A stretch of 64,000 bases of DNA from Streptomyces griseoviridis (lineage in GTDB: Bacteria; Actinomycetota; Actinomycetes; Streptomycetales; Streptomycetaceae), in NCBI RefSeq assembly GCF_005222485.1, contig NZ_CP029078.1, positions 7,999,501-8,063,500 on the forward strand, read 5' to 3'. Both the position numbers and the translations under genes were made by a program. The notes beneath the pieces are model-generated. The model had not been told where the DNA came from. It saw only the letters and a program-made list of their open reading frames with translations, and searched no databases. Below are positions 31,462 to 52,828 of this stretch, piece by piece (within the stretch, counting starts at the first letter, position 1; each line of letters begins with the position of its first letter).

Positions 31462-32094
31462 CTACGCCCGCGCCCCCACCGTTCCCAGGCAGAGCAGGAC
31501 GTGGCGGCGGGCGACCTCCTCCGCGCTGAGCGGGCCGTCGGCGCGGTACCAGTTGGCGACGCCCTGGCACATGATCAGGACCGCCCGTACCGCGTCCGCC
31601 GGGATGGGGGTGGTGAAGGCGCCCTCACTGACGCCGGTCCTGACGGTGTCGAGCAGCATGTGTTCGAGGTAGTCGCGCAGCGCGATGTAGCGGGCCCGGT
31701 TGTCCGGTTCGAGGCTGCGGATCTCGGTGTCGAGGAAGGCCAGGCCCTTGCGGTGGGCCATGTACAGCACGATCGACTCCACCATCGCGCAGAAGCGGGG
31801 GAGCGGTTCCTCGCCGGCCTCCTCGGCCGCCGCCCGGCACCGGTCGAGGACGTCCTTCATCGACGTCTCGAGCAACGTCGCCAGCAGGGCCTGCTTGTTG
31901 GCGTAGTGGTAGTACAGGGCCGGGACGGTGACGCCGACCCGCGCGGCGATCTCCCGCACCGAAGTGCCGTGGTAGCCCTGCTCGTTGAACGCCTCCATGG
32001 CGTGCAGCAGGATCGGGTGCAGATCGAGCCCGCCGTACGCGCGCCAGTGTCCGCGGGCGGTCTCCTGGCCGGTCCGGCCGCTCTGCGTGTTCAT
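31462..32094 (-). CDS. TetR-family regulator of the acyl-CoA operon
   Basis: 210 residues, ATG at 32094. The helix-turn-helix is HPILLHAMEAFNEQGYHG to VPALYYHYANKQALLATLLE. The C-terminal part resembles TetR proteins that govern fatty-acid degradation in actinobacteria. It is divergent from the racemase gene heading the beta-oxidation operon, and the 307-bp gap contains two different palindromes, so it very probably represses that operon and is released by an acyl-CoA. Confidence 0.92.
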   Translation of the reverse strand: MNTQSGRTGQETARGHWRAYGGLDLHPILLHAMEAFNEQGYHGTSVREIAARVGVTVPALYYHYANKQALLATLLETSMKDVLDRCRAAAEEAGEEPLPRFCAMVESIVLYMAHRKGLAFLDTEIRSLEPDNRARYIALRDYLEHMLLDTVRTGVSEGAFTTPIPADAVRAVLIMCQGVANWYRADGPLSAEEVARRHVLLCLGTVGARA

Positions 32095-32225
32095 CGGGAC
32101 TCCTCGCGATCCGCGGCCGGGACCACGGGCCGGGCTGGACGGCACCGCGCCGGACGGTACGGGCGTGGACGGACGGTACGTGCGCGGACGGTACGCGGCT
32201 GCGCTCGACTGGATCGCCGCCGCGG

Positions 32226-32249
32226 GACTTACCGATCGCTCGGTAAGTC
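32226..32249. promoter_or_regulatory. Candidate TetR operator GACTTACCGA-N4-TCGGTAAGTC
   Basis: A perfect inverted repeat with 10-bp arms and 4-bp spacer lies between the TetR and racemase genes. It is the strongest dyad in the gap. Confidence 0.75.
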
Positions 32250-32321
32250 TACGTGAGCCCCTCCTCAACTCGCCATCAAATCCTGCCGCTTGGCCCATTG
32301 ACCCCTCTCCGTCCGGCGCTC

Positions 32322-32343
32322 TAGCGTCTTTAGCGAGCGCTAA
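32322..32343 (+). promoter_or_regulatory. Racemase-operon promoter end and second palindrome TTAGCG-AG-CGCTAA
   Basis: TAGCGT (32322-32327) fits a Streptomyces -10, and the 14-bp palindrome TTAGCGAGCGCTAA (32330-32343) covers the expected start of transcription. It differs from the upstream dyad, hinting at a second regulator. Confidence 0.5.
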
Positions 32344-32401
32344 GTAGGTGCCGTCGGGAGTGAACCCGACGGCAGCCGCGCCGATGCCCGGAAGGGGACC
32401 G

Positions 32402-33616
32402 ATGAGCCCGACCGACGAACCTGTCCGCCCCTGCGCGCCGCCCGCCGCCGCGACGGTCAGACGGGCCGGACCGCTGGCGGGGGTCCGGGTGGTGGAACTC
32501 GCCGGGATCGGGCCCGCGCCGTTCGCGGCGATGCTGCTCGGCGATCTCGGGGCGGACGTCGTCCGCGTGGACCGGCCCGTCGCCTCCGAGTTGAGCGTCG
32601 AGCCCCGCTTCGACCTCACGGGCCGCAACAAGCGCTCCGTGCTCGTCGACCTCAAGGCCGCCGAAGGCCCCGCGACCGTGCTCGCCCTCGCCGCCCGCGC
32701 CGACATCCTCGTCGAGGGCTACCGCCCCGGCGTCGCCGAACGCCTCGGCGTCGGCCCCGAGGAGTGCCTCGCCGTCAACCCGGCGCTCGTGTACGGGCGG
32801 ATGACCGGCTGGGGGCAGCAAGGACCGCTCGCCGCCCGCGCAGGACACGACATCGACTACCTCGCCACCTCGGGCCTGCTCGGCATGATCGGGCCCTTCG
32901 AAGGACCGCCGGCCATCCCCGCCAACCTGCTCGGCGACTACGCGGGCGGCTCGCTCTATCTCGTCGTCGGCGTCCTGTCCGCGCTGCTGATGGCGCGGGT
33001 GGCAGGCGCGGGGCAGGTCGTGGACGCCGCCATCGTGGACGGCGCCGCCCACCTCAGCTCCGTCGTCCGCGGCATGGCGGCCGCCGGCTCCTGGCAGGAC
33101 GCGCGGGGGCGGAACCTCCTCGACGGCGGCTGCCCCTACTACACCGTGTACGAGACGGGCGACGGCGGCTGGATGGCGGTCGGCGCGCTGGAACCGAGGT
33201 TCTACGCCCTCTTCGTCTCCCTGCTCGGCCTCGCCGCCGACGGACTGCCCGACCGCACGGACCGCCGCAACTGGCCCGCGCTGCGGGACGCGTTCGCCCG
33301 CCGGTTCAAGACCGCGAGCCGGGACGCGTGGGCCGACGTCTTCGAGGGCACCGACGCCTGCGCCGCCCCCGTGCTCTCGCTGACCGAGGCCGCCCGCCAT
33401 CCGCACCTCGCCGGGCGCGGCACGTTCACCGAGGTGGACGGCATCGTCCAGCCCGCCCCCGCGCCCCGCTTCTCCGCCACGTCGGGAGCGCTGCGCCGAC
33501 CGCCCGCGACGCCCGGCGCCGACCACGCGGAGGTGGCCCGCGACTGGCAGGTGGACGCCCTGCGTCCGGCACCCGCGGGCGCGGGGCGCGCCGCCGAGGA
33601 AGGAAGCGGCTCGTGA
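32402..33616 (+). CDS. CaiB/BaiF-fold CoA protein, alpha-methylacyl-CoA racemase-like
   Basis: 404 residues from the ATG at 32402 after GGAAGGGGA. The N-terminus PLAGVRVVELAGIGPAPFAAMLLGDLGADVVRV and the segment GRMTGWGQQGPLAARAGHDIDYLA are those of alpha-methylacyl-CoA racemases, with the catalytic His in GHDI and Asp in GDYAGGS. The enzyme swaps R and S 2-methylacyl-CoA so that acyl-CoA dehydrogenase can act on methyl-branched chains from isoprenoids or sterols. It heads a six-gene beta-oxidation operon and overlaps the next gene by GTGA. A plain CoA transferase is the alternative. Confidence 0.87.
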   Translation: MSPTDEPVRPCAPPAAATVRRAGPLAGVRVVELAGIGPAPFAAMLLGDLGADVVRVDRPVASELSVEPRFDLTGRNKRSVLVDLKAAEGPATVLALAARADILVEGYRPGVAERLGVGPEECLAVNPALVYGRMTGWGQQGPLAARAGHDIDYLATSGLLGMIGPFEGPPAIPANLLGDYAGGSLYLVVGVLSALLMARVAGAGQVVDAAIVDGAAHLSSVVRGMAAAGSWQDARGRNLLDGGCPYYTVYETGDGGWMAVGALEPRFYALFVSLLGLAADGLPDRTDRRNWPALRDAFARRFKTASRDAWADVFEGTDACAAPVLSLTEAARHPHLAGRGTFTEVDGIVQPAPAPRFSATSGALRRPPATPGADHAEVARDWQVDALRPAPAGAGRAAEEGSGS

Positions 33617-34638
33617 AGCTCTCCACCACCCTGGAGTACGCCGCCGACCCGCGCGCCGCCGCCGACCGGGCCGCCGCCCTGGAACGCGCCGGACTCGACG
33701 CCGTCTGGGTCGCCGAGGCGTACGGCTTCGACTCACCGACGATCATGGGCTACCTGGCCGCCCGCACCGAGCGGATGCTGATCGGCTCGGCCGTCATCAA
33801 CGTCTACTCGCGCACCCCCGCCCTCATCGCGCAGACCGCGGCCGGCCTCGACGCCCTGACCGGCGGACGCGCCGTCCTCGGCATCGGGGCCTCGGGACCG
33901 CAGGTCGTGGAGGGCTGGCACGGCCGCCGCTACGACCGGCCGCTCGGCCGCACCCGGGAGACCATCACCCTGGCCCGCCGCATCTGGCGGCGCGAGGTCA
34001 TCGAGCACCACGGCATCACCGACCTGCCGCTGCCCCCGGAGAAGGGCGGCACCCTCGGCCGGCCGCTCAAGCTCCTCACCCACCCGGTGCGCCCCGCCAT
34101 CCCGATCCAGGTCGCCGCCCTCGGCCCGGCCAACGTCCGGATGACCGCCGAACTCGCCGACGGCTGGCTGCCGTTCCTCTACGTCCCCGAACACGCGGCC
34201 AAGGTCTGGGGCGCCCCGCTCGCCGAAGGCACCGCCCGCCGCGACCCCGCCCTCGGGCCGCTCGACGTCGTCGCGGGCGGACCCCTCGCCATCGGCCCGG
34301 ACGCCGAGGCCGTCCGCGACCGGCTGCGCCCGCTGATCGCCCTGTACGTCGGCGGCATGGGCGCACCCGGCCGCAACTTCTACCACGACCTGATGTGCGC
34401 CTACGGCTACGAGGCCGAGGCCCACGCCGTCCAGCGGCACTTCCTCGCCGGACGCAGACGGGACGCGGAATCCGCCGTTCCCGCCGAACTCTGCGCGCTC
34501 GCCAGCCTCGCAGGCCCGGAGGGGTACGTACGCGAACGCGTCGAGGCGTTCCGGGAGTCGGGCGTCACCGTCCTCGACGTCACGCCCGTGGGACCCGACC
34601 AGGAACGCCTCGTCGAACGGATCAAGGAGTGGCTGTGA
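33613..34638 (+). CDS. LLM-class F420-dependent-type oxidoreductase
   Basis: 341 residues, GTG at 33613 overlapping the racemase stop by GTGA. The luciferase-like barrel is shown by MKLSTTLEYAADPRAAADRA, AVWVAEAYGFDSPTIMGYLA, LIGSAVINVYSRTPALIAQ and LTGGRAVLGIGASGPQVVEGWHG, which is the pattern of actinobacterial F420 enzymes near acyl-CoA genes. Its specific reaction is unknown; hydride transfer to an acyl or isoprenoid intermediate is possible. The tight coupling on both sides ties it to the pathway. Confidence 0.9.
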   Translation: MKLSTTLEYAADPRAAADRAAALERAGLDAVWVAEAYGFDSPTIMGYLAARTERMLIGSAVINVYSRTPALIAQTAAGLDALTGGRAVLGIGASGPQVVEGWHGRRYDRPLGRTRETITLARRIWRREVIEHHGITDLPLPPEKGGTLGRPLKLLTHPVRPAIPIQVAALGPANVRMTAELADGWLPFLYVPEHAAKVWGAPLAEGTARRDPALGPLDVVAGGPLAIGPDAEAVRDRLRPLIALYVGGMGAPGRNFYHDLMCAYGYEAEAHAVQRHFLAGRRRDAESAVPAELCALASLAGPEGYVRERVEAFRESGVTVLDVTPVGPDQERLVERIKEWL

Positions 34639-35783
34639 CCGCGACCAGGGACCTCTACACCCCCGACCACGAGGCGTTCCGGGACACCGTGCGCGCCTTC
34701 CTCGCCAAGGAGGTGCTGCCCCACCACGCCCGCTGGGAGCAGGAGGGCGTGGTCAGCCGCGAGGTGTGGCGGGCCGCCGGAGAGCGGGGCCTGCTCGGGC
34801 TCGCGGTGCCCGAGGAGTACGGCGGCGGAGGCACCGACGACTTCCGCTACAGCGCCGTCCTCATCGAGGAGTTCGCCCGCGCCGGGGCCTCGGGGCTCGC
34901 CATCAGCCTGCACAACGACATCGTCGGGCCCTACCTCACCACCCTGGCCACCGAGGAGCAGAAGCGCCGCTGGCTCCCCGGCCACACCTCCGGGCGACTC
35001 GTCACCGCCGTCGCCATGAGCGAACCGGGCGCCGGGTCCGACCTCCAGGGCATCAGGACCACCGCCACCGACGAGGGCGACCACTACCTGCTCAACGGCT
35101 CCAAGACCTTCATCTCCAACGGCATCCTGGCCGACCTGGTCGTGGTGGTGGCCCGCACCACCCCCGAGGGCGGCCGCGCGGGGCAGAGCCTGCTGGTGGT
35201 GGAGCGCGGCATGCCCGGCTTCGAGCGCGGCCGCAACCTCGACAAGATCGGCCAGAAGGCCCAGGACACCGCCGAGTTGTTCTTCCGGGACGTCCGGGTC
35301 CCCAAGGAGAACCTGCTCGGCGAGGAGAACCGCGCCTTCCCCGCCCTGATGGCCCACCTCGCCCAGGAGCGGCTGGCCATCGCGGTCGGCGCGGCGGCCA
35401 CCGCCGAACACGTCCTAGGACTCACCCTCACCCACGTCAAGAACCGCGAGGCGTTCGGACATCCGCTCGCCCACCTCCAGCACGTCCGCTTCGAGGCCGC
35501 CGAGATGGCCACCGAGTGCGCCGTCACCCGCGGCTTCGTCGACCAGTGCGTCCTGGACCACTGCCGGGGCCAACTGGACGCCGTCCGCGCCGCGATGGCC
35601 AAGTGGTGGGCGACCGAACTCCAGAAGCGGATCGCCGACCGGTGCCTCCAACTCCACGGCGGATACGGCTACATGACGGAGTATCCGGTGGCCAGAGCCT
35701 TCCTGGACGGCCGCGTCCAGACGATCTACGGCGGCACCACCGAGATCATGAAGGAGATCATCGGCCGCTCCCTGCTGCGCTGA
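34635..35783 (+). CDS. Acyl-CoA dehydrogenase
   Basis: 382 residues, GTG at 34635 overlapping the previous stop by GTGA. Acyl-CoA dehydrogenase signatures are complete: [42 protein letters not shown] and the catalytic glutamate in [18 protein letters not shown]. It introduces the 2,3-double bond in an acyl-CoA using FAD and electron-transfer flavoprotein. With a racemase in front, a 2-methyl-branched substrate is expected. Length and motifs match the short/branched-chain group. Confidence 0.95.
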
Positions 35784-35841
35784 GCACCCGGCATCCCGCC
35801 CCCCGACCGGCTCCGCCCCACCCCAGCGACGGAAGGCTCCC

Positions 35842-37056
35842 GTGACCACCGAGGCGTACCTGTACGAGGCGATCCGCACCCCGCGCGGACGCGGCAAGGC
35901 CGGCGGTGCCCTGCACGGCACCAAACCCGTCGACCTGGTCGTCGGACTGATCGACGAGATCAGGCGCAGACTGCCGGGACTCGACCCGGCCGGCATCGAC
36001 GACATCGTCCTGGGCGTCGTCAGCCCGGTCGGCGACCAGGGCGGCGACCTCGCCCGCACCGCCGCCCTCGCGGCCGGCCTGCCCGACACCGTCGCGGGCG
36101 TGCAGACGAACCGCTTCTGCGCCTCCGGCCTCGAAGCCGTCAACCTGGCCGCCGCCAAGGTCCGTTCGGGCTGGGAGGAGCTGGTCGTCGCGGGCGGCGT
36201 CGAGTCCATGTCCCGGGTCCCGATGGGCAGCGACGGCGGGGCCTGGTCGATGGACCCGCGCACCAACTTCGACACCGGATTCGTCCCCCAGGGCGTCGGC
36301 GCCGACCTGATCGCCACCCTGGAGGGGTTCACCCGCGAGGACGTGGACGCCTACGCGGCCACCTCGCAGGCCAGGGCCGCCGAGGCGTGGAAGCTCGGCC
36401 GGTTCGACCGCTCCGTCGTCCCGGTGCGCGACCGCGCCGGACTGACGGTCCTCGACCGGGACGAACACCTCAGGCCCGGCACCACCGTCACCTCGCTCGC
36501 CGCGCTGACACCGTCGTTCGCCGAGATCGGGACGCGCGGCGGCTTCGACGCCGTCGCCCTCCAGAAGTACCACTGGGTCGAACGGATCGACCACGTCCAC
36601 CACGCGGGCAACTCCTCCGGCATCGTGGACGGCGCCGCCCTCACCCTCATCGGGTCCGCCGCCGCGGGGGAGCGGTACGGGCTGCGGCCCCGGGCCCGCG
36701 TCGTCTCCGCCGCCGTCTCGGGAGCCGACCCGACGATCATGCTGACCGGACCCGCGCCCGCCTCCCGCAAGGCCCTCGCCAAGGCCGGGCTGCGCACCCG
36801 CGACCTCGACCTCGTGGAGATCAACGAGGCGTTCGCCGCCGTCGTCCTGCGCTTCGCGCGCGAGATGGAACTCGACCAGGACCTCGTCAACGTCAACGGC
36901 GGAGCCATCGCCATGGGGCACCCGCTCGGCGCCACCGGCGCCATGATCCTCGGCACCCTCGTCGACGAACTGGAGGCCCGCGGCGGGCGCTACGGCCTCG
37001 CCACGCTGTGCGTCGGCGCCGGCATGGGGATCGCCACGGTCGTCGAACGCCTCTGA
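35842..37056 (+). CDS. Acetyl-CoA acyltransferase (thiolase)
   Basis: 404 residues, GTG at 35842. The nucleophilic cysteine is C93 in [13 protein letters not shown], and the C-terminal motifs [16 protein letters not shown] and [14 protein letters not shown] carry the second Cys and His. It cleaves 3-oxoacyl-CoA with CoA to acetyl-CoA (or propionyl-CoA when the chain is methyl-branched). It follows the acyl-CoA dehydrogenase after 58 bp and precedes the fused hydratase/dehydrogenase by 69 bp. Confidence 0.95.
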
Positions 37057-37125
37057 CCCGGCGCCCTCCCCGCACCCCCACCGCCACCCGGACAGGCCCG
37101 CCCGCGCGACGAGAGAGGCACCCCG

Positions 37126-39309
37126 ATGGACACGCCCGCCCCGAGCCGCACCATCCGCTGGGAGGGTGACGACGACCACGTCGTCACCCTCGTCCTCGAC
37201 GACCCCGACCAGTCGGCCAACACCATGAACGCGGCGTTCATCGACTCCCTTGACGCCGTCGTCGACCGCCTCGCGACCCGCCGCGACACCCTGCGGGGCG
37301 TCATCGTCACCTCCGCCAAGAAGACCTTCTTCGCCGGCGGCGACCTGCGGGACCTGATCGCCGTCACCCCCGAGACCGCCGGGCGCTCCTTCGAGGCGGG
37401 ACTGCGCGTCAAACGCGCGCTGCGCACGTTGGAGACCCTGGGCGTGCCCGTCGTCGCCGCCCTCGGCGGCGCGGCCCTCGGCGGGGGGTACGAGATCGCC
37501 CTCGCGTGCCACCACCGCGTCCTGCTCGACCGCCCCTCCGCCCGGGTCGGCCTCCCCGAGGTCACCTTCGGGCTGCTGCCCGCGGGCGGCGGAGTGACCC
37601 GCACCGTCCGCATGTTCGGCGTCACCGAAGCGCTGACCAAGGTGCTCCTTGACGGACGCCGGTACGCCCCCGCCGAGGCGCTGGCCGCGGGCCTGGTCGA
37701 CGAGACCGCCGCCGACGCGTCCGAACTGACCGCACGGGCAAGGGCGTTCATCGACGCCCACCCCGACGCGCGGCAGCCCTGGGACGTCGCGGGGTTCCGC
37801 ATCCCCGGCGGCACCCCCGACCGGCCCGAACTGGCCGCCACGCTCCCCGCCCTGCCCGCGCTGTTCCGCGAGAGGCTCGGCGGCGCCCCCTACCCGGCCC
37901 CGCGCGCCGTCCTCGCGGCCGCCGTCGAGGGCGCCCAGGTCGACCTCGACACCGCGTTCGTGATCGAGAGCCGCCACCTCACCGAACTGGTCCTGGGGCA
38001 GACCACCAAGAACATGATCCAGGGACACTTCTTCGACCTGAGGACCGTCGAGTCGGGGGCCGGACGGCCGCGCGGAGTGCCGTCGGGCACCGTCCGCAAG
38101 GTCGCCGTCCTGGGCGCCGGGATGATGGGCGCGGGCATCGCCCACGCCTGCGCCCGCGCGGGCATCGACGTGGTCCTGAAGGACACCACGCGGGAGGCCG
38201 CCGCCCGCGGCAGGGCCCACTCGGCGGGCATCCTGGAACGGGCCCTGCGCCAGGGCCGCACCACCGAGGCGGATCGGGACGCGCTGCTCGCCCGCATCAC
38301 CCCCACCGCCGACCCCGAGGAACTGGCGGGCTGCGACGCGGTGATCGAGGCGGTCTTCGAGGACCCGGCCGTCAAGGGCGAGGCGTTCCGGGAGGCCGAG
38401 AAGCACGTCGCCGCCGACGCGCTGCTCTGCTCCAACACCTCCACCCTCCCCATCGCCGGCCTCGCCGAGGCCGTCCGGCGCCCCGACGACTTCATCGGCC
38501 TGCACTTCTTCTCCCCGGTGCACCGGATGCGGCTGGTCGAGATCGTCAAGGGGCCGCGGACCGGCCCCCTGGCCCTCGCCCGCGCCTTCGACCTGGTGCG
38601 GCAGATCGGCAAGACCCCGATCGTCGTCAACGACAGCCGGGGCTTCTTCACCTCACGCGTCATCGGCCGCTTCCTCGACGAGGGCGTGGCGATGCTCGCC
38701 GAGGGCCACGACCCGGCCACCGTCGAACAGGCGGCGGCGCGGGCCGGCTACCCCGCGAAGGTGCTCGCCCTGATGGACGAACTCACCCTCACCCTGCCCC
38801 GGCGCATCCGCGAGGAGAACCGCGCCGCCGTCGAGAAGGCCGGCGGGACCTGGCGACCGCACCCGGCGGACGCCGTCGTCGACCGCATGATCGACGAGTT
38901 CGGCCGCACCGGACGCGCCGCCGGAGCCGGTTTCTACGACTACCGGGACGGACGCCGCGGCGGACTCTGGCCCGGCCTGCGCGAACACTTCACCGACCCC
39001 GCCCTGAACGGCGCCGACCTCACCGGACTCGGCGAGCGGATGCTCTTCGTCGAGGCACTGGACGCGGTGCGCTGCCTGGCCGAGGGTGTCCTCGTCTCGG
39101 TCGCGGACGCCAACGTCGGCTCCCTGCTGGGCATCGGCTTCCCCGCCTGGACCGGCGGCGTCCTCACCTACGTCAACGGCTACCCCGGCGGCCTGCCGGG
39201 CTTCCTCACCCGCGCGCGGGAGCTGCGCGACCGCCACGGCGACCGCTTCGCCCCGCCCGACCTGCTCGTCCGCATGGCCGCGAACGGCGAGACCTTCACC
39301 GACCGCTGA
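37126..39309 (+). CDS. Fused enoyl-CoA hydratase / 3-hydroxyacyl-CoA dehydrogenase (FadB/FadJ type)
   Basis: 727 residues, ATG at 37126. Residues about 10-200 are the crotonase domain (FFAGGDLRDL; LGGGYEIALACHHRV; GLPEVTFGLLPAGGG). Residues about 320-500 are the NAD-binding dehydrogenase (KVAVLGAGMMGAGIAHACARAG; LHFFSPVHRMRLVEIV with the catalytic His), followed by two C-terminal helical dimer domains. It does hydration and oxidation of beta-oxidation in one chain. It is the actinobacterial monofunctional-chain FadB and needs no separate beta subunit since the thiolase precedes it. Confidence 0.95.
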   Translation: MDTPAPSRTIRWEGDDDHVVTLVLDDPDQSANTMNAAFIDSLDAVVDRLATRRDTLRGVIVTSAKKTFFAGGDLRDLIAVTPETAGRSFEAGLRVKRALRTLETLGVPVVAALGGAALGGGYEIALACHHRVLLDRPSARVGLPEVTFGLLPAGGGVTRTVRMFGVTEALTKVLLDGRRYAPAEALAAGLVDETAADASELTARARAFIDAHPDARQPWDVAGFRIPGGTPDRPELAATLPALPALFRERLGGAPYPAPRAVLAAAVEGAQVDLDTAFVIESRHLTELVLGQTTKNMIQGHFFDLRTVESGAGRPRGVPSGTVRKVAVLGAGMMGAGIAHACARAGIDVVLKDTTREAAARGRAHSAGILERALRQGRTTEADRDALLARITPTADPEELAGCDAVIEAVFEDPAVKGEAFREAEKHVAADALLCSNTSTLPIAGLAEAVRRPDDFIGLHFFSPVHRMRLVEIVKGPRTGPLALARAFDLVRQIGKTPIVVNDSRGFFTSRVIGRFLDEGVAMLAEGHDPATVEQAAARAGYPAKVLALMDELTLTLPRRIREENRAAVEKAGGTWRPHPADAVVDRMIDEFGRTGRAAGAGFYDYRDGRRGGLWPGLREHFTDPALNGADLTGLGERMLFVEALDAVRCLAEGVLVSVADANVGSLLGIGFPAWTGGVLTYVNGYPGGLPGFLTRARELRDRHGDRFAPPDLLVRMAANGETFTDR

Positions 39310-39382
39310 CCCGCAACACGGACCACGCCCCTCCGCACGGACCGTCCCACCCGCCCCGCACCGCGTACCACAGGAGGCCGCC

Positions 39383-41293: not shown

Positions 41294-41306
41294 GCCGCCC
41301 AGGACG

Positions 41307-41356
41307 GCGCGCAGGGCCGGTCGCACCCCCTCCCGGGTGCGACCGGCCCTGCGCGC
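41307..41356. terminator. Very strong 22-bp perfect hairpin between convergent genes
   Basis: Positions 41307-41328 are the exact reverse complement of 41335-41356 with a 6-nt loop. It stands between the acyl-CoA synthetase stop and the convergent acyl-CoA dehydrogenase stop and should terminate both transcripts. Confidence 0.9.
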
Positions 41357-41365
41357 TGCCCCCGG

Positions 41366-42496
41366 TCAGAGTCCGTAGCTCTTGCCGATGATGTCCCGCT
41401 GGATCTCGCTGGTCCCGCCGTACACCGTGGAGACGACCGCGGCCCGCAGATGGCGCTCCATGCCGTACTCGGTGGCGTAGCCGTACCCGCCCATCATCTG
41501 CATGCACTCCAGCGCGACCCGCTTGGCGGTCTCGGTCGCCTTGAGCTTGGCCATCGACGCCTCCCGGGGGAAGAGCCGCTCCGGCTCCGCGTCGCAGTCC
41601 GCGGCCACCTCCCGCACCAGCAGCCGGGCGCACTCGATCTCGGTGGCCAGATCGGCGACCCGGTGCCGCAGGGCCTGGAACGAGCCGATCGGCCGCCCGA
41701 ACTGCTCGCGTTCACGCAGGTAGGAGACCGCGTCGTCGAAGGCGCGGCGGGCCAGCCCCAGCATGTTCGCGGCGAGGAAGAGGCGTTCGTCGTTGAGCCC
41801 GGCCATCAGCTGCGGCCAGCCCTCGCCCACCGCGCCCACCACCGCGTCCGCGGGCAGCCGCACACCGGTCAGGAACACGTCGTTGACCTCACGGCCGCCC
41901 ATCGTCTCGATGCCCCGCACCTCCACCCCCGGGGTGTCCATCGGGACGTGGAACATGGTCAGCCCGCGGTGCTTCTCCGGGCCGGTGCGGGCCACCAGCA
42001 GCATGCTGTCGGCGAGGTGCGCGTTGGAGATCCACGTCTTCTGCCCCTCGACCGACCAGTCCCCGTCGGGCCGTCGCTCGGCCCGGCAGCGCAGCGCTCC
42101 CACGTCCGAGCCGGCCGCCGGTTCCGACATCGCGATCGACAGCACCCGCCCGCGCACCGCGCTGCCCAGGACCTCCCGGCGCTGCTTCGCCGAGGCGAAC
42201 CGGGCGAAGGCGCGGGCGGTGATGACGGTGGTGACGAACCCGCCGGCCGGGACCAGCCCGTAGGTGATCTCCTCCAGGAACACGCACGCGTCGGCGAGGC
42301 CGCCGCCCGCACCGCCGTACTCCTCGGGCAGGCACACCCCGAGCCACCCCAGGTCCGCCAGTTTCCGGTAGATCACCGCATCGTGCGGGGTGCGTGCGGC
42401 GCCGGCCTGACGGTCCTGGTCCGCGCACTCGCGTTTGGCGAAGTCGCGGACGGCGGCGGCGAGAGCGGCCTGTTCCTCGGTCAGTCGGCTTCCCAT
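41366..42496 (-). CDS. Acyl-CoA dehydrogenase (second copy)
   Basis: 376 residues, ATG at 42496. Motifs: LGVCLPEEYGGAGGG, IAMSEPAAGSDVGAL, TWISNAHLAD, MMGGYGYATEYGMERHLRAA and the catalytic glutamate in VYGGTSEIQRDIIGKSYGL. It differs from the copy at 34635 in the start region (MGSRLTEEQAALAAAVRDF). It faces the six-gene operon and is divergent from a TetR gene at 42594, whose product probably controls it. The substrate could again be a branched acyl-CoA. Confidence 0.95.
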   Translation of the reverse strand: MGSRLTEEQAALAAAVRDFAKRECADQDRQAGAARTPHDAVIYRKLADLGWLGVCLPEEYGGAGGGLADACVFLEEITYGLVPAGGFVTTVITARAFARFASAKQRREVLGSAVRGRVLSIAMSEPAAGSDVGALRCRAERRPDGDWSVEGQKTWISNAHLADSMLLVARTGPEKHRGLTMFHVPMDTPGVEVRGIETMGGREVNDVFLTGVRLPADAVVGAVGEGWPQLMAGLNDERLFLAANMLGLARRAFDDAVSYLREREQFGRPIGSFQALRHRVADLATEIECARLLVREVAADCDAEPERLFPREASMAKLKATETAKRVALECMQMMGGYGYATEYGMERHLRAAVVSTVYGGTSEIQRDIIGKSYGL

Positions 42497-42541
42497 GGGG
42501 AATCTCCCTCGTGCGTCGTGATCCCCGGACCACCGGTGTGG

Positions 42542-42562
42542 CACAGGGATATGGTTGCTGTG
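42542..42562. promoter_or_regulatory. Weak dyad CACAG-N11-CTGTG between acyl-CoA dehydrogenase and TetR
   Basis: A 5-bp inverted repeat with 11-bp spacer in the 97-bp divergent gap, near the TetR start. Placement supports an operator, strength does not. Confidence 0.35.
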
Positions 42563-42593
42563 TCCATGTCTCTCGGGGTGGGAGCGCCGGCCC

Positions 42594-43223
42594 ATGACGA
42601 CGGCTTCTGAGCACGACTCCGCGCTGGTCCGGGCGATGGCCAGGCCCGAGCCCGAGGAGAAGGTGGCGCGCCGCATCCTCGACGCGGCGCTCGAGCAGTT
42701 CACCACCTTCGGTCTGCGCAGGTCCTCGATGGACGACGTCGCCAAGCGCGCCGGGCTGTCCCGGGTGACGGTCTACCGCCGCTTCCGGAACAAGGACGGA
42801 CTGGTCGAGGCCTGCCTGCTGCGGGAGGGCAGCCGGTTCTTCGCCCAGTTGGACGCCGCCGTGGCCGATCTGCCCTCCATGGAGGAGCGGGTCGTCGAGG
42901 GGTTCGTCGTCGCCCTGCGCCACTCCCGTGAACACCCCTTGTTCGGTGGGTTGTTGAGGCTGGAACCGGAGGTGGTGCTGCCCTACCTCACGGTCAAGGG
43001 CGGCCCCTACCTGTCGGCCACCACCGAGTACCTGAGCGGCCATCTCCGCCGGGCCCAGAGGGCCGAGGGCCGTCCGGACAGCGATACGGGGCCGCTGGCC
43101 GAGCTGATGGTCCGGGTCGCTGTCTCCTTCCTCCTCAACCCGGCCGGCCGCATCGACCTCGGCGACGAGGAGCGGACCCGGGCCTTCGCCCGCCGCTACC
43201 TCGCCCCCCTGATCGGCGTCTGA
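42594..43223 (+). CDS. TetR-family regulator
   Basis: 209 residues from the ATG at 42594 (MTTASEHDSALVRAMARPEP); the upstream ATG in the same frame at 42555 is less likely. The helix-turn-helix runs from VARRILDAALEQFTTFGLRRSS to SRVTVYRRFRNKDGLVEACLLRE. The rest is ligand domain. It is divergent from the acyl-CoA dehydrogenase and convergent with the aldehyde dehydrogenase 19 bp away, so it probably governs one or both. Confidence 0.92.
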   Translation: MTTASEHDSALVRAMARPEPEEKVARRILDAALEQFTTFGLRRSSMDDVAKRAGLSRVTVYRRFRNKDGLVEACLLREGSRFFAQLDAAVADLPSMEERVVEGFVVALRHSREHPLFGGLLRLEPEVVLPYLTVKGGPYLSATTEYLSGHLRRAQRAEGRPDSDTGPLAELMVRVAVSFLLNPAGRIDLGDEERTRAFARRYLAPLIGV

Positions 43224-43242
43224 CCGGCGGGACCGCGGCCGG

Positions 43243-44754
43243 TCAGCGGCGCCGATGCAGCCCCCGCACCAGCGCCACGGCCCGCGCCTTCGCGGCGGCC
43301 GGGGTGCGGAACGAGGTCAGGTCGACCGGCGCGGCGAACCTGCGGACGGTCACCGACTGCGGCGCGGTGAACGACAGCAGCCCCTCGGCGCCGTGCACCC
43401 GCCCGAACCCCGAATCCCCCGACCCGCCGAACGGCAGCGCCGGTACGGCGGCGAACCCCAGCACTGAGTTGACCGACACCGCCCCCGCCCGCAGCCGCGC
43501 GGCCAGCGCGGCGCCGGTACGCCGGCTGCCGCAGAACACGGCGGCGCCCAGCGCGTACCGGGAGGCGTCGGCCAGCCGCACCGCCTCGTCGACGTCGGTC
43601 ACCGCGTTCACCACGACCACCGGCCCGAAGGTCTCCTCGGTCAGGGCGGGGCAGTCCTCGGGGACACCGGTGAGCACCACCGGCGCGACGACGTTCCCCG
43701 CGACCGAGTCCGTCCCGCCCCACAGGGCCTCGGCGCCGGCCGCCAGCGCCTCGGTGATGTGCCGTCGCACCACCTCCGCCTGGCCCGGCATGGTCATCGG
43801 GCCGTACGACGCGTCGGACCCGGCCCCTGGGCGCAGGTCGCGGGCCCGCTCCACGATCCGCCGGCACAGCTCCTCGTGGATCTCCCGCACGGCGTAGACG
43901 CGTTCGACGCCCGCGCAGGTCTGTCCCGCGTTGCCCATCGCCCCCCAGACGACGGCGTCCGCCGCCGCGTCCAGATCGGCGTCGGCCGCGACGATCACCG
44001 CGTCCTTGCCACCGCACTCCGCGAGGAGCGGGGTCAGCGACTCGGCGCACACCGCCATCACCCGGCGCGCGGTGCCGGGCGACCCGGTGAACGCCACCTT
44101 GTCGACGCCCGACCTGGCCAGCGCCTCACCGGTCGGTCCCGCGCCGGTGACCACGGTGAGCAGCCCGGCGGACTCCGGCACCGCCGCGTCGAACGCCTCG
44201 GCGAGGGCCGCCCCGGTGGCCGGGGTGTACTCCGACGGCTTGAACACCACGCCGTTGCCCGCCGCGAGCGCGTACCCGATCGACCCCATCGGGGTGTACA
44301 CCGGGTAGTTCCACGGGCCGATCACCCCGATCACGCCGAGCGGCCTGTGCACCAGCGTCGCCGACTGGTTCGCGGCGAGCCAGCCCGAGCGCACCCGGCG
44401 GCGCCGCAGCAGCCGTCCGGCGTGCCGGGCCGCCCAGTCCAGGTGCACGAGCGTCAGCAGGAGTTCGAGTTCCGCGTCGGCGCGGGGTTTGCCGGTCTCG
44501 GCGGCCACGGTCGCCGCCACCGCGTCCAGGCGGGCGGCGAGTTCCCGCTTCCAGGTGAGCAGAGCGGAGCGGCGCTCCGCGGCGGGCAGCGCCGCCCAGC
44601 GCCCGGCGGCCTCGCGGCTGCGGCGTACCGCGTCCGCCACGTCGTCCGGGCCGTGCACCGGGTGGTCGGCGAGCACCCGCCCGGTGGCGGGGTCGCGGGA
44701 GGCGAAGGTGGTCGGCCCCGCCGGTGGCGGTGCGGCCGGTGTGGTGTGCGTCAT
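43243..44754 (-). CDS. Aldehyde dehydrogenase family (succinate-semialdehyde-type)
   Basis: 503 residues with ATG at 44754 after AGGAGC. The ALDH fold is shown by GVIGVIGPWNYPVYTPMGSIGYALAAGNGVVFKPSEYTP (given as continuous domain), FTGSPGTARRV, the general base in LLAECGGKDA and the nucleophilic cysteine in GNAGQTCAGVERV. It oxidises an aldehyde to an acid with NAD(P). It is the second gene after an MpaB-family oxygenase (73-bp gap) and divergent from lcp, so oligo-isoprenoid aldehydes from rubber cleavage are a natural substrate by context. Confidence 0.93.
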   Translation of the reverse strand: MTHTTPAAPPPAGPTTFASRDPATGRVLADHPVHGPDDVADAVRRSREAAGRWAALPAAERRSALLTWKRELAARLDAVAATVAAETGKPRADAELELLLTLVHLDWAARHAGRLLRRRRVRSGWLAANQSATLVHRPLGVIGVIGPWNYPVYTPMGSIGYALAAGNGVVFKPSEYTPATGAALAEAFDAAVPESAGLLTVVTGAGPTGEALARSGVDKVAFTGSPGTARRVMAVCAESLTPLLAECGGKDAVIVAADADLDAAADAVVWGAMGNAGQTCAGVERVYAVREIHEELCRRIVERARDLRPGAGSDASYGPMTMPGQAEVVRRHITEALAAGAEALWGGTDSVAGNVVAPVVLTGVPEDCPALTEETFGPVVVVNAVTDVDEAVRLADASRYALGAAVFCGSRRTGAALAARLRAGAVSVNSVLGFAAVPALPFGGSGDSGFGRVHGAEGLLSFTAPQSVTVRRFAAPVDLTSFRTPAAAKARAVALVRGLHRRR

Positions 44755-44827
44755 CACTGCTCCTGGGAGGTTCTGTCGATCACCGGGATGCCGTTCCTCT
44801 GGACCTGCCGCGCCCGCGTGACCCGGG

Positions 44828-45745
44828 TCAGCCGTCCGCTTCCGGGCGCGGGCGCGCCGCCCGGCCCGGCGGCTGCTCGTCGGGCAGCGGCAGCAGGGGC
44901 CGCTCGGTGGCCCAGTGCGGGCCGAGGTCGTCCAGGGTCCAGCCGAAGGGGTAGCTGCGGGGCCGGGGGCGGTGCGGCCACCGGTCGGGCCGGGCGGGCA
45001 GCAGGCGTACCAGCCGGGCGCGGGCCCGCAGCGAGCGGTGCGCGACGGTGCGCAGCCACCGCGGCTGAACCGGCAGCCCGAGCGCGCTGAGCAGGGGTTC
45101 GTCGAGCACGGCCAGGGCGACGCGCGCCGCCAACGGGCGTACGGGGCGCGGGAAGACGTCGAGGACGGTGCGCAACGTCGCCGCTGCCACCCGCCGGTTG
45201 GCGGGGTCGAAGGCGAACATCGCGCGCTCGTAGGCGTCGTGGAGGCGTTCGAAGGCCGCGTAGTCCTCGGGGACGCCGCTGATGCCCATCCGCTCACCCA
45301 TCCGCCGGCCCACCCGGGCCAGACTCTCCACCTCGGCGGGAATCAGCGGACGCCAGCCGTAGCGGTCGATCCAGCGCTTGGGGCCGACCACGGTGGTGGC
45401 CAGCACGTACAGATAGTCCTCGTTGGGGATGCGGTAGCGGTGGTGGATGCGGTTGAGACGGCGGACGGTGTCCCGCCCGTGCGCGGAGTCCATCCCCTCG
45501 CGGACCATCTCGTAGGCGATCAGCACGGTGTCGTCGTAGCGCTTGCGCCCGGCCCGCTCGAACTCCTGGGTGCGGTCGAGGAGTCGGGAGATCCGGGGCA
45601 CGCCGTAGTCGCGCAGGAAGGCGACGGACACGCCCTGGAGGTAGTCCCAGGGGAACTCGTACTGGGTGAGCAGCCAGAAGATCCGCTCGTGGTCCCGCTC
45701 GGGATCGAGCCGTTCGATCTGGCGCAGCCGCCGGTAACGGCCCAT
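44828..45745 (-). CDS. MpaB/Lcp-superfamily (DUF2236) oxygenase-like protein
   Basis: 305 residues, ATG at 45745 with a strong AAGGAGG site. The central part reads as a DUF2236/MpaB domain: RKRYDDTVLIAYEM, RLNRIHHRYRIPNEDYLY, where the His in NRIHHRY is a candidate heme ligand, and VVGPKRWIDRYGWRPL. Unlike the Lcp protein it has no signal peptide, so it should act in the cytosol. MpaB relatives cleave double bonds of prenyl side chains. It is co-directional with the aldehyde dehydrogenase and divergent from lcp across 367 bp. Its substrate is not known. Confidence 0.82.
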   Translation of the reverse strand: MGRYRRLRQIERLDPERDHERIFWLLTQYEFPWDYLQGVSVAFLRDYGVPRISRLLDRTQEFERAGRKRYDDTVLIAYEMVREGMDSAHGRDTVRRLNRIHHRYRIPNEDYLYVLATTVVGPKRWIDRYGWRPLIPAEVESLARVGRRMGERMGISGVPEDYAAFERLHDAYERAMFAFDPANRRVAAATLRTVLDVFPRPVRPLAARVALAVLDEPLLSALGLPVQPRWLRTVAHRSLRARARLVRLLPARPDRWPHRPRPRSYPFGWTLDDLGPHWATERPLLPLPDEQPPGRAARPRPEADG

Positions 45746-45849
45746 GGACGGTGCCTCCTTGACCCCTCGGGGTGTCGGACGGAGGAGGAGGTGCGGGGGA
45801 GGGGCCGCCGAGGAGCGGGACCCCGTCGAGAGACTCGAAGATACAAAAA

Positions 45850-45878
45850 CTATTCACTTGTTTCCGCCGGGACGTCAA
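45850..45878 (-). promoter_or_regulatory. Candidate promoter of the MpaB-like/aldehyde dehydrogenase operon
   Basis: On the minus strand TTGACG (45878-45873) and GAATAG (45855-45850) have a 17-bp spacer in an AT-rich island about 105 bp upstream of the ATG. Confidence 0.4.
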
Positions 45879-45975
45879 GAGCGCGGACACGGCGGCCGGG
45901 TGACGGCGCCGAGGCCGCGGGCGCCGGGGCGAAACCGCTCGCGATCCGCCGCCCCGACGGGGTCGGTCAGGGCCA

Positions 45976-46004
45976 TTGCCGACCGTGGTGCGGCTCGCTA
46001 TGTT
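45976..46004 (+). promoter_or_regulatory. Candidate lcp promoter TTGCCG-N17-TATGTT
   Basis: -35 TTGCCG (45976-45981) and -10 TATGTT (45999-46004) at 17-bp spacing, just before a large dyad. The leader to the ATG is about 100 bp. Confidence 0.55.
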
Positions 46005-46014
46005 AATCAAAAAT

Positions 46015-46044
46015 CACACGCCCTGAAACAATCCAGGACGTGTG
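46015..46044. promoter_or_regulatory. Candidate lcp operator: 11-bp imperfect inverted repeat
   Basis: CACACGCCCTG (46015-46025) and CAGGACGTGTG (46034-46044) match at 10 of 11 pairs with an 8-nt spacer. It starts 11 bp after the -10, the place for a repressor such as the tandem TetR next to lcp. Confidence 0.6.
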
Positions 46045-46112
46045 CGTTGCACAACTCGCCAGTCAGAACGGCCCATTGCGCCGCCTGACCCATCAGGGAA
46101 GCGAGTAAGTCA

Positions 46113-47309
46113 ATGGAGAATCTCAGCAGGCGCGGCATGCTGTCCCTCGGCGTCGCGCTCGGCCTCGTCGGCGCGACGGGACCCGGCAGGGCGTGGGCCG
46201 CACCGGGCGCGACGGCCCCGGCGGGCAGCGCCACCGGCCCCGAGTACGTCTGGGACGCGGCGGCCGATCCGCTGATGGCCTCGGTGATCGACAACGGCCA
46301 GGTCCCGGCGGTCAACGCCGCCTGGGCGTCCTGGGTGAACAACAACGACCCGCTGCCCAGCGGCCTGCCCGCCGACGTCACCGCCTACCTCACGACCGTC
46401 AACAAGCTGCCCACCTGGGCCGACCCCGCCAAACTGGCCCGCGCCGCCGACTTCAACCGCCGCAGGGACACCTACCTGTTCATGCTCTACGGCCTCGGCA
46501 GCGGCATCATGAGCACCGTGATCCCGCGCGAGGCCCGCAGCGTCTACTGGTCGGCGGGCGGCGCCAACATGCAGGACCGCGCGGCCAAGACGTTCACCTT
46601 CGGCTACGACCTCTCCCAGCTCGGCGCCTTCGCGCCGACGGGACAGTTCGTCGTCACCGCCAACAAGACACGCATGGTGCACGCCGCCGTACGCCATCTG
46701 CTGCCCCGGTCGCCGCACTGGACGGCGGTGGCCGACGAGTCCGTGCCGATCAGCGCCGCCGACATCCTGGTCACCTTCCACAGCCTCGGCACCTACGTCC
46801 GCCGCCGGATGCTCGACTGGGGCGTCCCCATGCCGGCCGCCGACCAGGAGGCGTTCCTGCACGCCTGGCAGGTCGCCATCCATCTGCTCGGCGTGCCGGA
46901 CGAGCACATCCCGCAGAGCTGGGCCGCGGCCGAGGCGCAGTCGGCCCAGGTGCTCACCCCGATCCTCACCCCGACCCCCGAGGGCATCGAGCTGGCGGAG
47001 GACCTGCTCGGGCTGACCGCCCAGATCGACCTCGGCATCACCCGAGGCGTCCTCAACGAGTTCGTGCGCTACGTCCTCAGCGACCAGGTCGGCGACTGGC
47101 TCGGCCTGAAGCGCGACTACGCTGCGGCGACCCTCGTCCGCACCGGCTGGCCCGCGTTCATCCTCTTCCGCGAGGGGCTGTCACCCGTCCTGCCGGGCGC
47201 CTTCTACATGTTCGACCAACTCCTGCGCGCCCTCGCCATGTTGTTCCTCAACAAGGGCTCGTCCTCGACCACCACCCCCATCACCATCCCCACCGGGAAC
47301 AGGGCGTAG
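46113..47309 (+). CDS. lcp: Latex clearing protein (rubber oxygenase), Tat-exported b-type heme enzyme
   Basis: 398 residues, ATG at 46113. The twin-arginine signal SRRGMLSLG leads to a cleavage site AWA/AP near residue 29. The mature protein matches the Lcp of Streptomyces sp. K30: its catalytic set is retained at a constant offset of 8, namely E140 (E148 in K30), R156, K159 and T160 (R164, K167, T168), and the heme His H190 (H198) in TRMVHAAVRHLLP. Lcp cleaves poly(cis-1,4-isoprene) with O2 to oligo-isoprenoids ending in an aldehyde and a ketone. The K30 numbers are from memory of the published structure. It is divergent from the MpaB-like oxygenase and convergent with the tandem TetR. Confidence 0.93.
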   Translation: MENLSRRGMLSLGVALGLVGATGPGRAWAAPGATAPAGSATGPEYVWDAAADPLMASVIDNGQVPAVNAAWASWVNNNDPLPSGLPADVTAYLTTVNKLPTWADPAKLARAADFNRRRDTYLFMLYGLGSGIMSTVIPREARSVYWSAGGANMQDRAAKTFTFGYDLSQLGAFAPTGQFVVTANKTRMVHAAVRHLLPRSPHWTAVADESVPISAADILVTFHSLGTYVRRRMLDWGVPMPAADQEAFLHAWQVAIHLLGVPDEHIPQSWAAAEAQSAQVLTPILTPTPEGIELAEDLLGLTAQIDLGITRGVLNEFVRYVLSDQVGDWLGLKRDYAAATLVRTGWPAFILFREGLSPVLPGAFYMFDQLLRALAMLFLNKGSSSTTTPITIPTGNRA

Positions 47310-47384
47310 CCGGACGGGACGGGACGACCGGCCCCCGCGACCCGAGGCCGGCCCGGCCGCAACCCCCTTGCCCGGCAGGCCCGT

Positions 47385-48548
47385 TCAGACGCCGAGGGCG
47401 CTCACGACCAGCGCGGTCACGGCGTCACGGTGGGCCGGCGTGTCCCGCCACCGCAGTTCGCGTCCGGCCTCCACCACCGCGCCGAACCCCGCGTGCACCA
47501 GCACCCGGGCCTGACGCGGGTCGAGTTCGGGACGGACCAGGCGCAACTGCTGCTCCCAGACGGCGATGTGCTCGCGCTGGGCGACCACCAGCGACCGCCG
47601 CAGGTCGGCCGGGAGCCCGGGGAGTTCGGCCTCCGCGACGCTGTTGAGGGCGGTGTGCTCGAAGCTGTAGGCGACATACGTCGCCGCCAGCGCGCCCACG
47701 GCGGCCCGCGGACCGGTCACCTCCCGCAGGCTCCGCTCCGCGCCCTGCGCCAGCAGCCCCGCGGCCTGGAGGCACGCCGCCACCAGGATGTCGACCTTGC
47801 CGGGGTAGTGCCGGTAAAGCGCGGACGGCGCGAGCCCCACGGCCTCCGCGATCTGCCCGTTGGTCACGTGGGCGAACCCGTCGCGCGCGAACAGCGGGAC
47901 GGCCGCGGCGAGGATCTCCGCGCGCCGCGTCCGCGGCACCGGCAGGGCGGGCAGCTCGACGGGCCGGGCGCTGTCGCGGGCGGTGAACGGGTCGCTCGTC
48001 GCCACCCGCAGCGCGGACGCCAGGAGGAGTTCCTCGCACCGGCGTTGGGCGATCGACGTGTGGTGCATCGCGATGGACCCGATCACCCCGAGGGCCGCCA
48101 CCGCCCGCAGCCGGCCGTCCGGCAGCGGCCGCCCGGCCCGCACGGCCTCGTCGACGCGCCCGACCACCTGGGCGAACTTCGCCCGCAGCCGCGGCCGGTC
48201 CTCGTCGTCGAGGTACCGGGCCTCCCACCGGTAGACGCCGCCCGAGGCGCGGTGCGCGACGCTCACCCGGGTGACGGACGCCAGCACCTCGGCCAGGTCG
48301 CCGTCGGGGGGCACCTCGGCGAGCGCGGCGACGAGCCGGTCCGCCATGACGTCGGCGCACTCGGCGAAGAGCGCGTACTTGTTGGGGAAGTGCCGGTACA
48401 GGGCCGCGGCGGTGATGCCCACGCCCGCGGCGATCTTCTCCATGGACGCGGCGTGGTAGCCGACGTCGCTGAAGGCTCGACCGGCCGCCTCGATGATGAG
48501 CTGCCTGCGGTTGCGGGGCCGGGCCGCCGAGGTCGGACCGGCGGTCAC
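47385..48548 (-). CDS. Tandem TetR regulator: two TetR helix-turn-helix modules in one chain
   Basis: 387 residues, GTG at 48548. A first TetR N-terminal module is at about 15-60 (LIIEAAGRAFSDVGYHAAS to TAAALYRHFPNKYALFAEC) and a second at about 210-255 (ILAAAVPLFARDGFAHVT to LAPSALYRHYPGKVDILVAA), each followed by its own helical ligand region. This is nearly two regulators fused. Its stop is 75 bp from that of lcp, so it is the likely lcp regulator, with the dyad at 46015-46044 as target; this is an inference. Confidence 0.9.
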   Translation of the reverse strand: MTAGPTSAARPRNRRQLIIEAAGRAFSDVGYHAASMEKIAAGVGITAAALYRHFPNKYALFAECADVMADRLVAALAEVPPDGDLAEVLASVTRVSVAHRASGGVYRWEARYLDDEDRPRLRAKFAQVVGRVDEAVRAGRPLPDGRLRAVAALGVIGSIAMHHTSIAQRRCEELLLASALRVATSDPFTARDSARPVELPALPVPRTRRAEILAAAVPLFARDGFAHVTNGQIAEAVGLAPSALYRHYPGKVDILVAACLQAAGLLAQGAERSLREVTGPRAAVGALAATYVAYSFEHTALNSVAEAELPGLPADLRRSLVVAQREHIAVWEQQLRLVRPELDPRQARVLVHAGFGAVVEAGRELRWRDTPAHRDAVTALVVSALGV

Positions 48549-52648: not shown

Positions 52649-52828
52649 GCGTCTGTCTGCCTTTCGGGGGCGGCGGGGCGAGTGAGGTGGAGGAGGCGCT
52701 CGGCCTCGCCCCCGGCCGTGGTGGCGCGGTGTCCTCACTCACGGAACAGTCCATGGGGTTCGATTTATGTTCATGCGTGACCAACGGGACGAATCCCGCG
52801 GTGTCGATCACGTCGGCTACGCTAAAAC

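Follow-up and report, generated by a model that had tools for sequence, protein, structure and literature searches.

LcpK30 of Streptomyces sp. K30 cuts the rubber polymer into oligo-isoprenoids with an aldehyde end and a ketone end, and in the lcp-oxiAB locus of that strain an oxidising enzyme for the aldehyde ends is encoded close to the exported latex clearing protein (Lcp). Aldehyde dehydrogenases (ALDHs) for oligo-isoprene aldehydes have been described in Gordonia polyisoprenivorans VH2, which is without OxiAB genes, and in Nocardia farcinica NBRC 15532, although not as an lcp cluster in the available part of that account (PMC9782182), and loss of the alpha-methylacyl-CoA racemase (Mcr) abolished polyisoprene use by VH2 (as cited in the accessible text of PMC9108482). 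An lcp locus without oxiAB has been drawn for Streptomyces sp. AC04842 in the order racemase, TetR, hypothetical, ADH, TetR, lcp, MpaB, and both lcp genes of this strain are reported to be upregulated on rubber, the available text being inconsistent as to whether lcp1 or lcp2 is the oxiAB-free one (PMC9108482). Here we examine a 64,000-nucleotide stretch of Streptomyces griseoviridis DNA (the window; C1:7999501-8063500 of a single-contig genome of 8.96 Mb, designated G000 in comparisons) and consider it likely, on the strength of sequence comparison, that its 31.4-48.6 kb segment is a locus for the use of polyisoprene (rubber-type polyterpene), of a recurrent, OxiAB-free Streptomyces kind.

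In place of an OxiAB-like gene, the segment differs from the K30 locus in carrying an ALDH gene, a beta-oxidation operon and an mpaB gene (the K30 OxiAB sequence lay outside the comparison). The AC04842 locus resembles the order common among relatives of the window strain, whereas the window order is permuted, the locus is without ADH or GXWXG genes, and the LLM, FadD, acyl-CoA dehydrogenase (ACAD) and ALDH genes of the window are not described for AC04842 in the accessible part of PMC9108482. When the open-access literature was searched for an lcp neighbourhood with acyl-CoA and aldehyde dehydrogenase genes, AC04842 alone appeared among the matches listed; the ALDH-FadD-LLM set was not found described within an lcp locus in that literature, insofar as its texts were available, and no F420-dependent or luciferase-like enzyme was found linked there with lcp and rubber degradation. 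Because the AC04842 locus has already been drawn, the neighbourhood is not wholly new.

Gene set and signals of the lcp locus

A first-pass annotation had proposed a rubber-catabolic island within 17 kb, and profile and sequence searches recovered all of its named genes at or near the places it had given. The segment reads as follows.

31462..32094, minus strand: tetR1, regulator divergent from the operon (TetR_C_24, 89.4 bits)
32228..32247, plus strand: palindrome in the tetR1-racemase gap, candidate TetR1 operator (conserved upstream of tetR1)
32330-32343: second palindrome in the same gap, TTAGCGAGCGCTAA
32402..33616, plus strand: alpha-methylacyl-CoA racemase (Mcr), CoA_transf_3 family (MCR 1x74, 395.7 bits; catalytic-site motifs)
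33613..34638, plus strand: LLM-class F420-dependent oxidoreductase, Rv3520c type (TIGR03559, 457.7 bits; cut-off 335)
34650..35783 (start approximate), plus strand: acyl-CoA dehydrogenase 1, ACAD1 (Acyl-CoA_dh_1, 137.3 bits)
35842..37056, plus strand: thiolase, FadA (Thiolase_C, 155.5 bits; Thiolase_N, 152.6 bits)
37126..39309, plus strand: FadB, fused enoyl-CoA hydratase / 3-hydroxyacyl-CoA dehydrogenase (M. tuberculosis FadB 4b3h, 861 bits)
39400..41293 (start approximate), plus strand: FadD, FadD11-like acyl-CoA ligase, type I (AMP-binding, 229.4 bits)
41366..42496, minus strand: acyl-CoA dehydrogenase 2, ACAD2 (Acyl-CoA_dh_1, 174.4 bits)
42594..43223, plus strand: tetR2 regulator (TetR_N, 58.1 bits)
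43243..44754, minus strand: GabD2-like aldehyde dehydrogenase (Aldedh, 405.9 bits; GQTC motif)
44828..45745, minus strand: mpaB, predicted oxygenase with the MpaB/Lcp haem-protein fold (inspection by eye showed no signal peptide)
45847..45863, minus strand: conserved palindromic element AAACAAGTGAATAGTTT upstream of mpaB, candidate TetR2 operator (conserved in relatives)
45999..46018, plus strand: LcpRB-type operator TATGTTAAT-N2-AAAATCACA over the -10-like TATGTT of lcp
46113..47309, plus strand: lcp, latex clearing protein (rubber oxygenase) with a predicted Tat-type signal (PF09995, 54.7 bits; LcpK30 5o1l, 416.6 bits)
47385..48548, minus strand: tetR3, TetR regulator of LcpRB type, adjoining lcp (two N-terminal TetR_N stretches)

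The annotation had named a Tat-exported Lcp with a full catalytic set, and this description held. The alignment with LcpK30 spans residues 1-393 of 398, and the residues read from it at E148, R164, K167, T168 and H198, the catalytic list given in the available part of PMC12724181, are identical in the two proteins; an SRRGML near the N-terminus, read by eye, would be the Tat-type signal. The candidate promoter, assigned by reading, places TATGTT 17 bases from TTGCCG, and the operator over it matches exactly the LcpRB operator as quoted in the accessible part of a review (PMC8235351). Scanned with up to 3 mismatches, the 8.96-Mb genome contains this single site, at lcp, and none at the operon or at mpaB-ALDH. 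Conservation extends to relatives, with GCTATGTTA present in 66 of 70 lcp upstream regions (some species counted twice) and a tetR3-type gene close to lcp in 32 of 35 named lcp loci; the tetR3 product shows the two N-terminal helix-turn-helix domains described for LcpRB. The genome has five MPAB_Lcp_cat places in total, and a distant Lcp-like protein at G000:C1:8593927-8594919 (locus L007) is 28% identical to the window Lcp.

Profile matches bear out the two acyl-CoA dehydrogenases (34.65-35.78 kb and 41366-42496), the thiolase and the three TetR genes of the annotation. Its ligase and aldehyde dehydrogenase are borne out as well, as FadD11-like and GabD2-like proteins that both score below curated family cut-offs, and it had overlooked the LLM-class (luciferase-like) gene at 33613-34638. 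The racemase call is sound, with 395.7 bits to M. tuberculosis MCR against at most 140.7 bits to any CoA-transferase compared, and with GHDIDYL and GDYAGGS at the sites of the catalytic His and Asp, which we take to be MCR His126 and Asp156. The racemase and LLM genes overlap at a GTGA junction, so that the plus-strand genes look like one operon, and ALDH and mpaB, on one strand with 73 bases between them, are perhaps in one transcript, judging from their spacing. A second, core racemase-ACAD1-thiolase-FadB operon lies in the same genome at C1:7672613-7673716 (locus L075) and is 71-80% identical; no window-type LLM, FadD, ALDH or mpaB was seen in its 20 kb.

The window MpaB has the fold of MpaB-type oxygenases (8s1j / Lcp fold), its closest solved structure being the trans-anethole oxygenase 8s1j at 18% identity, and is a relative of the MpaB-family haem oxygenase Nro1, which acts on nitrile rubber (available part of PMC12724181). 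The Arg position of the Nro1/Lcp Arg-x-x-Lys motif, placed by spacing, is Ala in the window protein, and Lys68, Arg69 and His101 are invariant across 19 sequences, a pattern compatible with haem binding and C=C cleavage.

OxiAB is absent from the locus, as the annotation had claimed: three MoCoBD_1 (PF02738) places exist in the genome and none in the window. Compared with an OxiB-like protein encoded close to lcp in the relative G284, the products of these places show 26.1-29.5% identity (K30 OxiB itself lay outside the comparison), and we rejected an OxiAB elsewhere in the genome because none of the three is close to that protein. That an aldehyde dehydrogenase takes the place of OxiAB is supported by the presence of the ALDH gene, by the lack of an OxiAB-like gene nearby and by the precedents in Gordonia VH2 and Nocardia farcinica (available part of PMC9782182), which are likened to the window ALDH by function. 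Of seven regions taken from around the more distant lcp genes, one (G284) contained an OxiB-like protein, and none was seen within 20 kb in G280, G105, G053, G123, G087 or G221, so that the keeping of oxiAB beside more distant lcp pairs is not confirmed within 20 kb. The type-II FadD genes of the lcp-free loci L177 (G173) and L178 (G054) lie at most ~8 kb from a MoCoBD-type protein ~54% identical to one in the window genome.

G+C runs from 71.7 to 75.1% in 2-kb windows over 30-48 kb, inside the range of the surroundings, and a tRNA scan found none; recently acquired DNA of odd composition is therefore unsupported. About 3 kb past the island, a hydrolase at window 51710-52738 shows weak similarity of PETase type, at 30.1 bits against a cut-off of 28.

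Linkage and co-occurrence with lcp

We compared 392 genomes of the genus, which the named lcp loci indicate to be Streptomyces, scoring the best few candidates per genome and dropping tblastn matches that covered under half of the query (in some comparisons under 45%). Counted at E 1e-100, lcp occurs in 44 genomes, 36 of them with a window-type gene (at least 76% identity); more distant lcp genes score near that cut, so that 44 of 392 may be low. Named loci (L008-L042) overlap the G genomes, and regional motif counts hold some species twice. That lcp and the operon never travel together had been named in advance as the outcome that would undo the grouping; 17 of the 36 window-type lcp genomes have operon genes on the same contig as lcp (G000, G041, G095, G116, G118, G131, G155, G195, G221, also L011, G237, G246, G283, G306, G334, G335, G339 and G386), and the contigs of G130 and G338 are too short to tell. 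Because much of the gene set recurs near lcp in relatives, the grouping is probably meaningful.

The common order in linked relatives is lcp, lcpRB, ADH, GXWXG, tetR1, operon, ACAD2, tetR2, ALDH, mpaB, with tetR2 between ACAD2 and ALDH and, within the stretches seen, mpaB not terminal in G155, G335, G246, G118 and G195. In the window lcp-lcpRB stands behind mpaB, and a search of the whole genome for GXWXG gave no match at E 1e-5 (run with no positive control; ADH was not searched for). Since G133 has the block at a site sharing the left flank of the window and lcp on a separate contig, lcp and block were perhaps joined in the window lineage by a separate rearrangement, to judge from these arrangements.

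The ALDH and the type-I ligase track lcp most closely, and MpaB less so. ALDH (E 1e-150, 53-100% identity) is found in 33 genomes with lcp and 5 without, 11 having lcp without ALDH and 343 neither (Fisher 3e-33); at an identity of at least 66% it is found in 35 genomes, 31 with lcp and 4 without. FadD matches are bimodal, with type I (at least 72%) in 25 genomes and type II (61-68%) in 56. Type I is accompanied by lcp in 23 genomes, 2 having the ligase alone, 21 lcp alone and 346 neither (Fisher 6e-23), and type II, which serves as a specificity control, is weakly linked (11 of 56 with lcp, p 0.04). The type-I ligase lies on the lcp contig in 13 of its 25 genomes, namely the linked genomes above other than G283 and G386, which seem to run across contig ends, and G339 and G041, where the operon head is beside lcp and FadD elsewhere; lcp is on another contig in G133, G217, G087 and G364, placement is unsettled in G130 and G338, and G024 and G109 are lcp-free. 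A racemase (E 1e-110 or better) is present in 373 of the 392 genomes, so its presence says nothing about rubber. In a racemase tree of 34 rows, a 100/100 branch separates the copies of 17 lcp-linked blocks and of G133 from 16 core and type-II copies, with bootstrap not fully settled.

Across 23 block-bearing genomes tetR1 and tetR2 were found in 22 each, ALDH and FadD in 21 each, LLM and ACAD2 in 18 each, mpaB in 16, racemase in 14, ACAD1 in 13, and thiolase and FadB in 9 each, with identity cut-offs chosen post hoc and some blanks reflecting contig or fetch ends (G116 does have ligase and ALDH). Reduced blocks retain FadD, tetR2 and mostly ALDH, and drop the general beta-oxidation genes, for which core copies exist. 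Because these blocks keep them, and because the lcp-free G024, which retains part of the block, yields ALDH residues 273-504 alone (L166 8916-9610), gene content suggests that ALDH and FadD are the specialised steps.

The 11 lcp genomes without the window ALDH comprise seven of another island type (G059, G103, G123, G161, G289, G308 and G312) and four with a distant lcp only (G006, G277, G280 and G329); no OxiB-like gene was seen in 20 kb of G280, the sole one of these four fetched. In this second island type, an ACAD and an ALDH unlike that of the window are encoded on the opposite strand to lcp and another FadD beyond lcpRB; it occurs in G308, G312, G161, G289, G059, G002, G123, L012, L020 and L037 (Actinophytocola), with ADH and GXWXG as well in G308 and G312; its ALDH was not detected in G103. 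The more distant lcp pairs of G105 (L136) and G087 (L140) likewise have FadB-, ALDH-, ACAD2- or FadD-like genes near them, at 43-64% identity.

Counter-evidence and the question of control

Several observations weigh against reading the segment as a dedicated rubber locus. As many as 17 of the 36 window-type lcp genomes lack the type-I operon beside lcp, G346 among them keeping GXWXG, tetR2, ALDH and mpaB and G245 having a type-II operon ~9 kb off. Block and lcp are on different contigs in G133, G217, G087 and G364, the type-I block occurs without lcp in G024 and G109, and ALDH does so in G089, G090, G109, G290 and G389; no lcp was found at E 1e-20 in these six block- or ALDH-bearing genomes with a query that matched 44 genomes in the main lcp search. 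At an identity of at least 63%, mpaB is in 47 genomes, 28 with lcp and 19 lcp-free, and mpaB with a tetR2-like gene, together with the element upstream of mpaB, also stands beside the core operon of lcp-free G149 and G358. Several reduced blocks are without racemase, ACAD1, thiolase and FadB. Among the named loci, those of Amycolatopsis (6), Dactylosporangium (2) and Rhizocola (1), some of them on short contigs, showed no operon in the vicinity of lcp, and the Fisher values ignore the kinship of the genomes.

Control adds to this list, as lcp, the operon and mpaB-ALDH each have different operator-like elements, which means that co-induction is not implied. The palindrome at 32228..32247 recurs upstream of tetR1 in 37 of 37 regions (up to 3 mismatches; some species twice), and AAACAAGTGAATAGTTT upstream of mpaB in 17 of 23 (up to 3 mismatches), with 1 site in the window and 0 in shuffles. 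One operator for the whole island was rejected, since the LcpRB site does not recur and the operon and mpaB-ALDH have these other conserved elements.

A further point against comes from S. coelicolor, in which SCO6785-6789 (SCOfadAB_3) is described as a fatty-acid beta-oxidation cluster that is oleate-induced, complements an E. coli fadBA mutant on laurate and oleate, contributes to triacylglycerol turnover and raises triacylglycerol when lost, with lcp not mentioned in the available part of the paper (PMC5539140). Across 183 loci, the published SCO6785 promoter primers match letter for letter in the tetR1-operon gap of lcp-linked loci (forward in 2, reverse in 14; in L040, a reduced block, the site lies before LLM), and the published SCO6789 primer falls on the FadB start in 4 lcp-linked loci. 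Neither SCO6785 nor SCO6789 primers matched in the fetched core loci, and SCO6788_F, SCO6731_F, SCO6732_F and the SCO6730 promoter primer had no match in the 183 loci. By gene count, the S. coelicolor lcp presumably lies near SCO6780. From the operon's own palindromes, from the SCO6785 and SCO6789 primer matches to lcp-linked operons and from the oleate induction in S. coelicolor, we conclude that the beta-oxidation operon is probably common to fatty acids and rubber products. The earlier proposal of one pathway, drawn from adjacency, thus stands insofar as lcp and the gene set travel together, and finds no support as regards single control, given that the LcpRB operator is found only at lcp; the oleate-induced counterpart, the 17 unlinked genomes and G024 and G109 weaken it too.

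Competing explanations and a proposed route

The identity of the parts, their linkage and co-occurrence with lcp and the exact LcpRB operator are directly supported, and from these we infer substrates, a shared flux, uptake and roles for MpaB and the LLM enzyme. In the proposed route, LcpRB-controlled lcp would yield an exported Lcp that breaks the polymer down extracellularly to oligo-isoprenoids bearing aldehyde and ketone ends, and these would enter the cell. ALDH would convert the aldehyde end to an acid and FadD the acid to a CoA ester, Mcr would set the 2-methyl stereochemistry, and the acyl-CoA dehydrogenases, FadB and thiolase would carry out beta-oxidation. MpaB may split a C=C bond in the oligomers once they are imported and so supply ALDH, whose gene lies 73 bases downstream of mpaB, and reduction of a dienoyl or enoyl intermediate may fall to the F420-dependent LLM enzyme.

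Were the operon an ordinary fatty-acid beta-oxidation operon that simply has lcp as its neighbour, rubber would concern lcp and its regulator only. The complementation, oleate induction and triacylglycerol phenotype of SCO6785-6789 (available part of PMC5539140) would be expected on that account, as would a racemase in 373 of 392 genomes, and it overlaps partly with our preferred explanation wherever the operon is shared. The lcp-linked racemase, however, groups apart from the core copy, the window genome having both (core at C1:7672613), and ALDH and type-I FadD rarely occur outside lcp genomes. That core copy and eight lcp-free core loci, over 20 kb and with G089 excepted, show no LLM, FadD, ACAD2, ALDH, tetR2 or mpaB; in G089 LLM and FadD do lie there, with ALDH and mpaB further on, and G247 carries a type-II FadD. 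We consider a purely fatty-acid operon unlikely. A different substrate range is somewhat easier to entertain, if still doubtful: the block might break down other isoprenoids with methyl branches (phytol, squalene, carotenoid or plant terpene acids), Lcp being one input of several. The lcp-free type-I blocks of G024 and G109, the five genomes with ALDH and no lcp, the type-II FadD, ALDH and mpaB within ~10 kb in lcp-free G089 and G090, and trans-anethole oxygenase 8s1j as the nearest solved structure to MpaB all fit such a range, but 33 of 38 ALDH genomes have lcp, and lcp-free G024 yields an ALDH of residues 273-504 only.

Chance and common descent within a few lineages, devoid of functional meaning, would account for the pattern if the relatedness of the genomes, which the Fisher tests ignore, and the 17 of 36 window-type lcp genomes without the operon beside lcp were taken as decisive. 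Against this, the lcp-block linkage exists in two orders (window and relatives), four genomes keep both parts on separate contigs, other genomes, including one of Actinophytocola, have lcp flanked by another gene set with these functions, and the distant lcp pairs of G105 and G087 are also near FadB-, ALDH-, ACAD2- or FadD-like genes; we regard this account as highly improbable. At the other extreme, a complete OxiAB-independent route from rubber to CoA esters, in which oxidative cleavage happens twice, by Lcp outside and by an ALDH-coupled MpaB inside the cell, with the LLM enzyme replacing a 2,4-dienoyl-CoA reductase and the whole forming a rearrangeable Streptomyces module, is a tentative extension of the OxiAB-free rubber locus that we think rather unlikely in full.

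For an OxiAB-free rubber locus, the significance lies in the steps after Lcp, the poorly known part of bacterial rubber degradation. The comparison provides a short list of genes that accompany lcp across the genus, with ALDH and type-I FadD at its head and LLM and MpaB next, and names ALDH as the probable aldehyde-oxidising enzyme of OxiAB-free Streptomyces. It also joins two literatures, in that the SCO6785-6789 fatty-acid operon of S. coelicolor appears to be the operon that is linked to lcp in its relatives.

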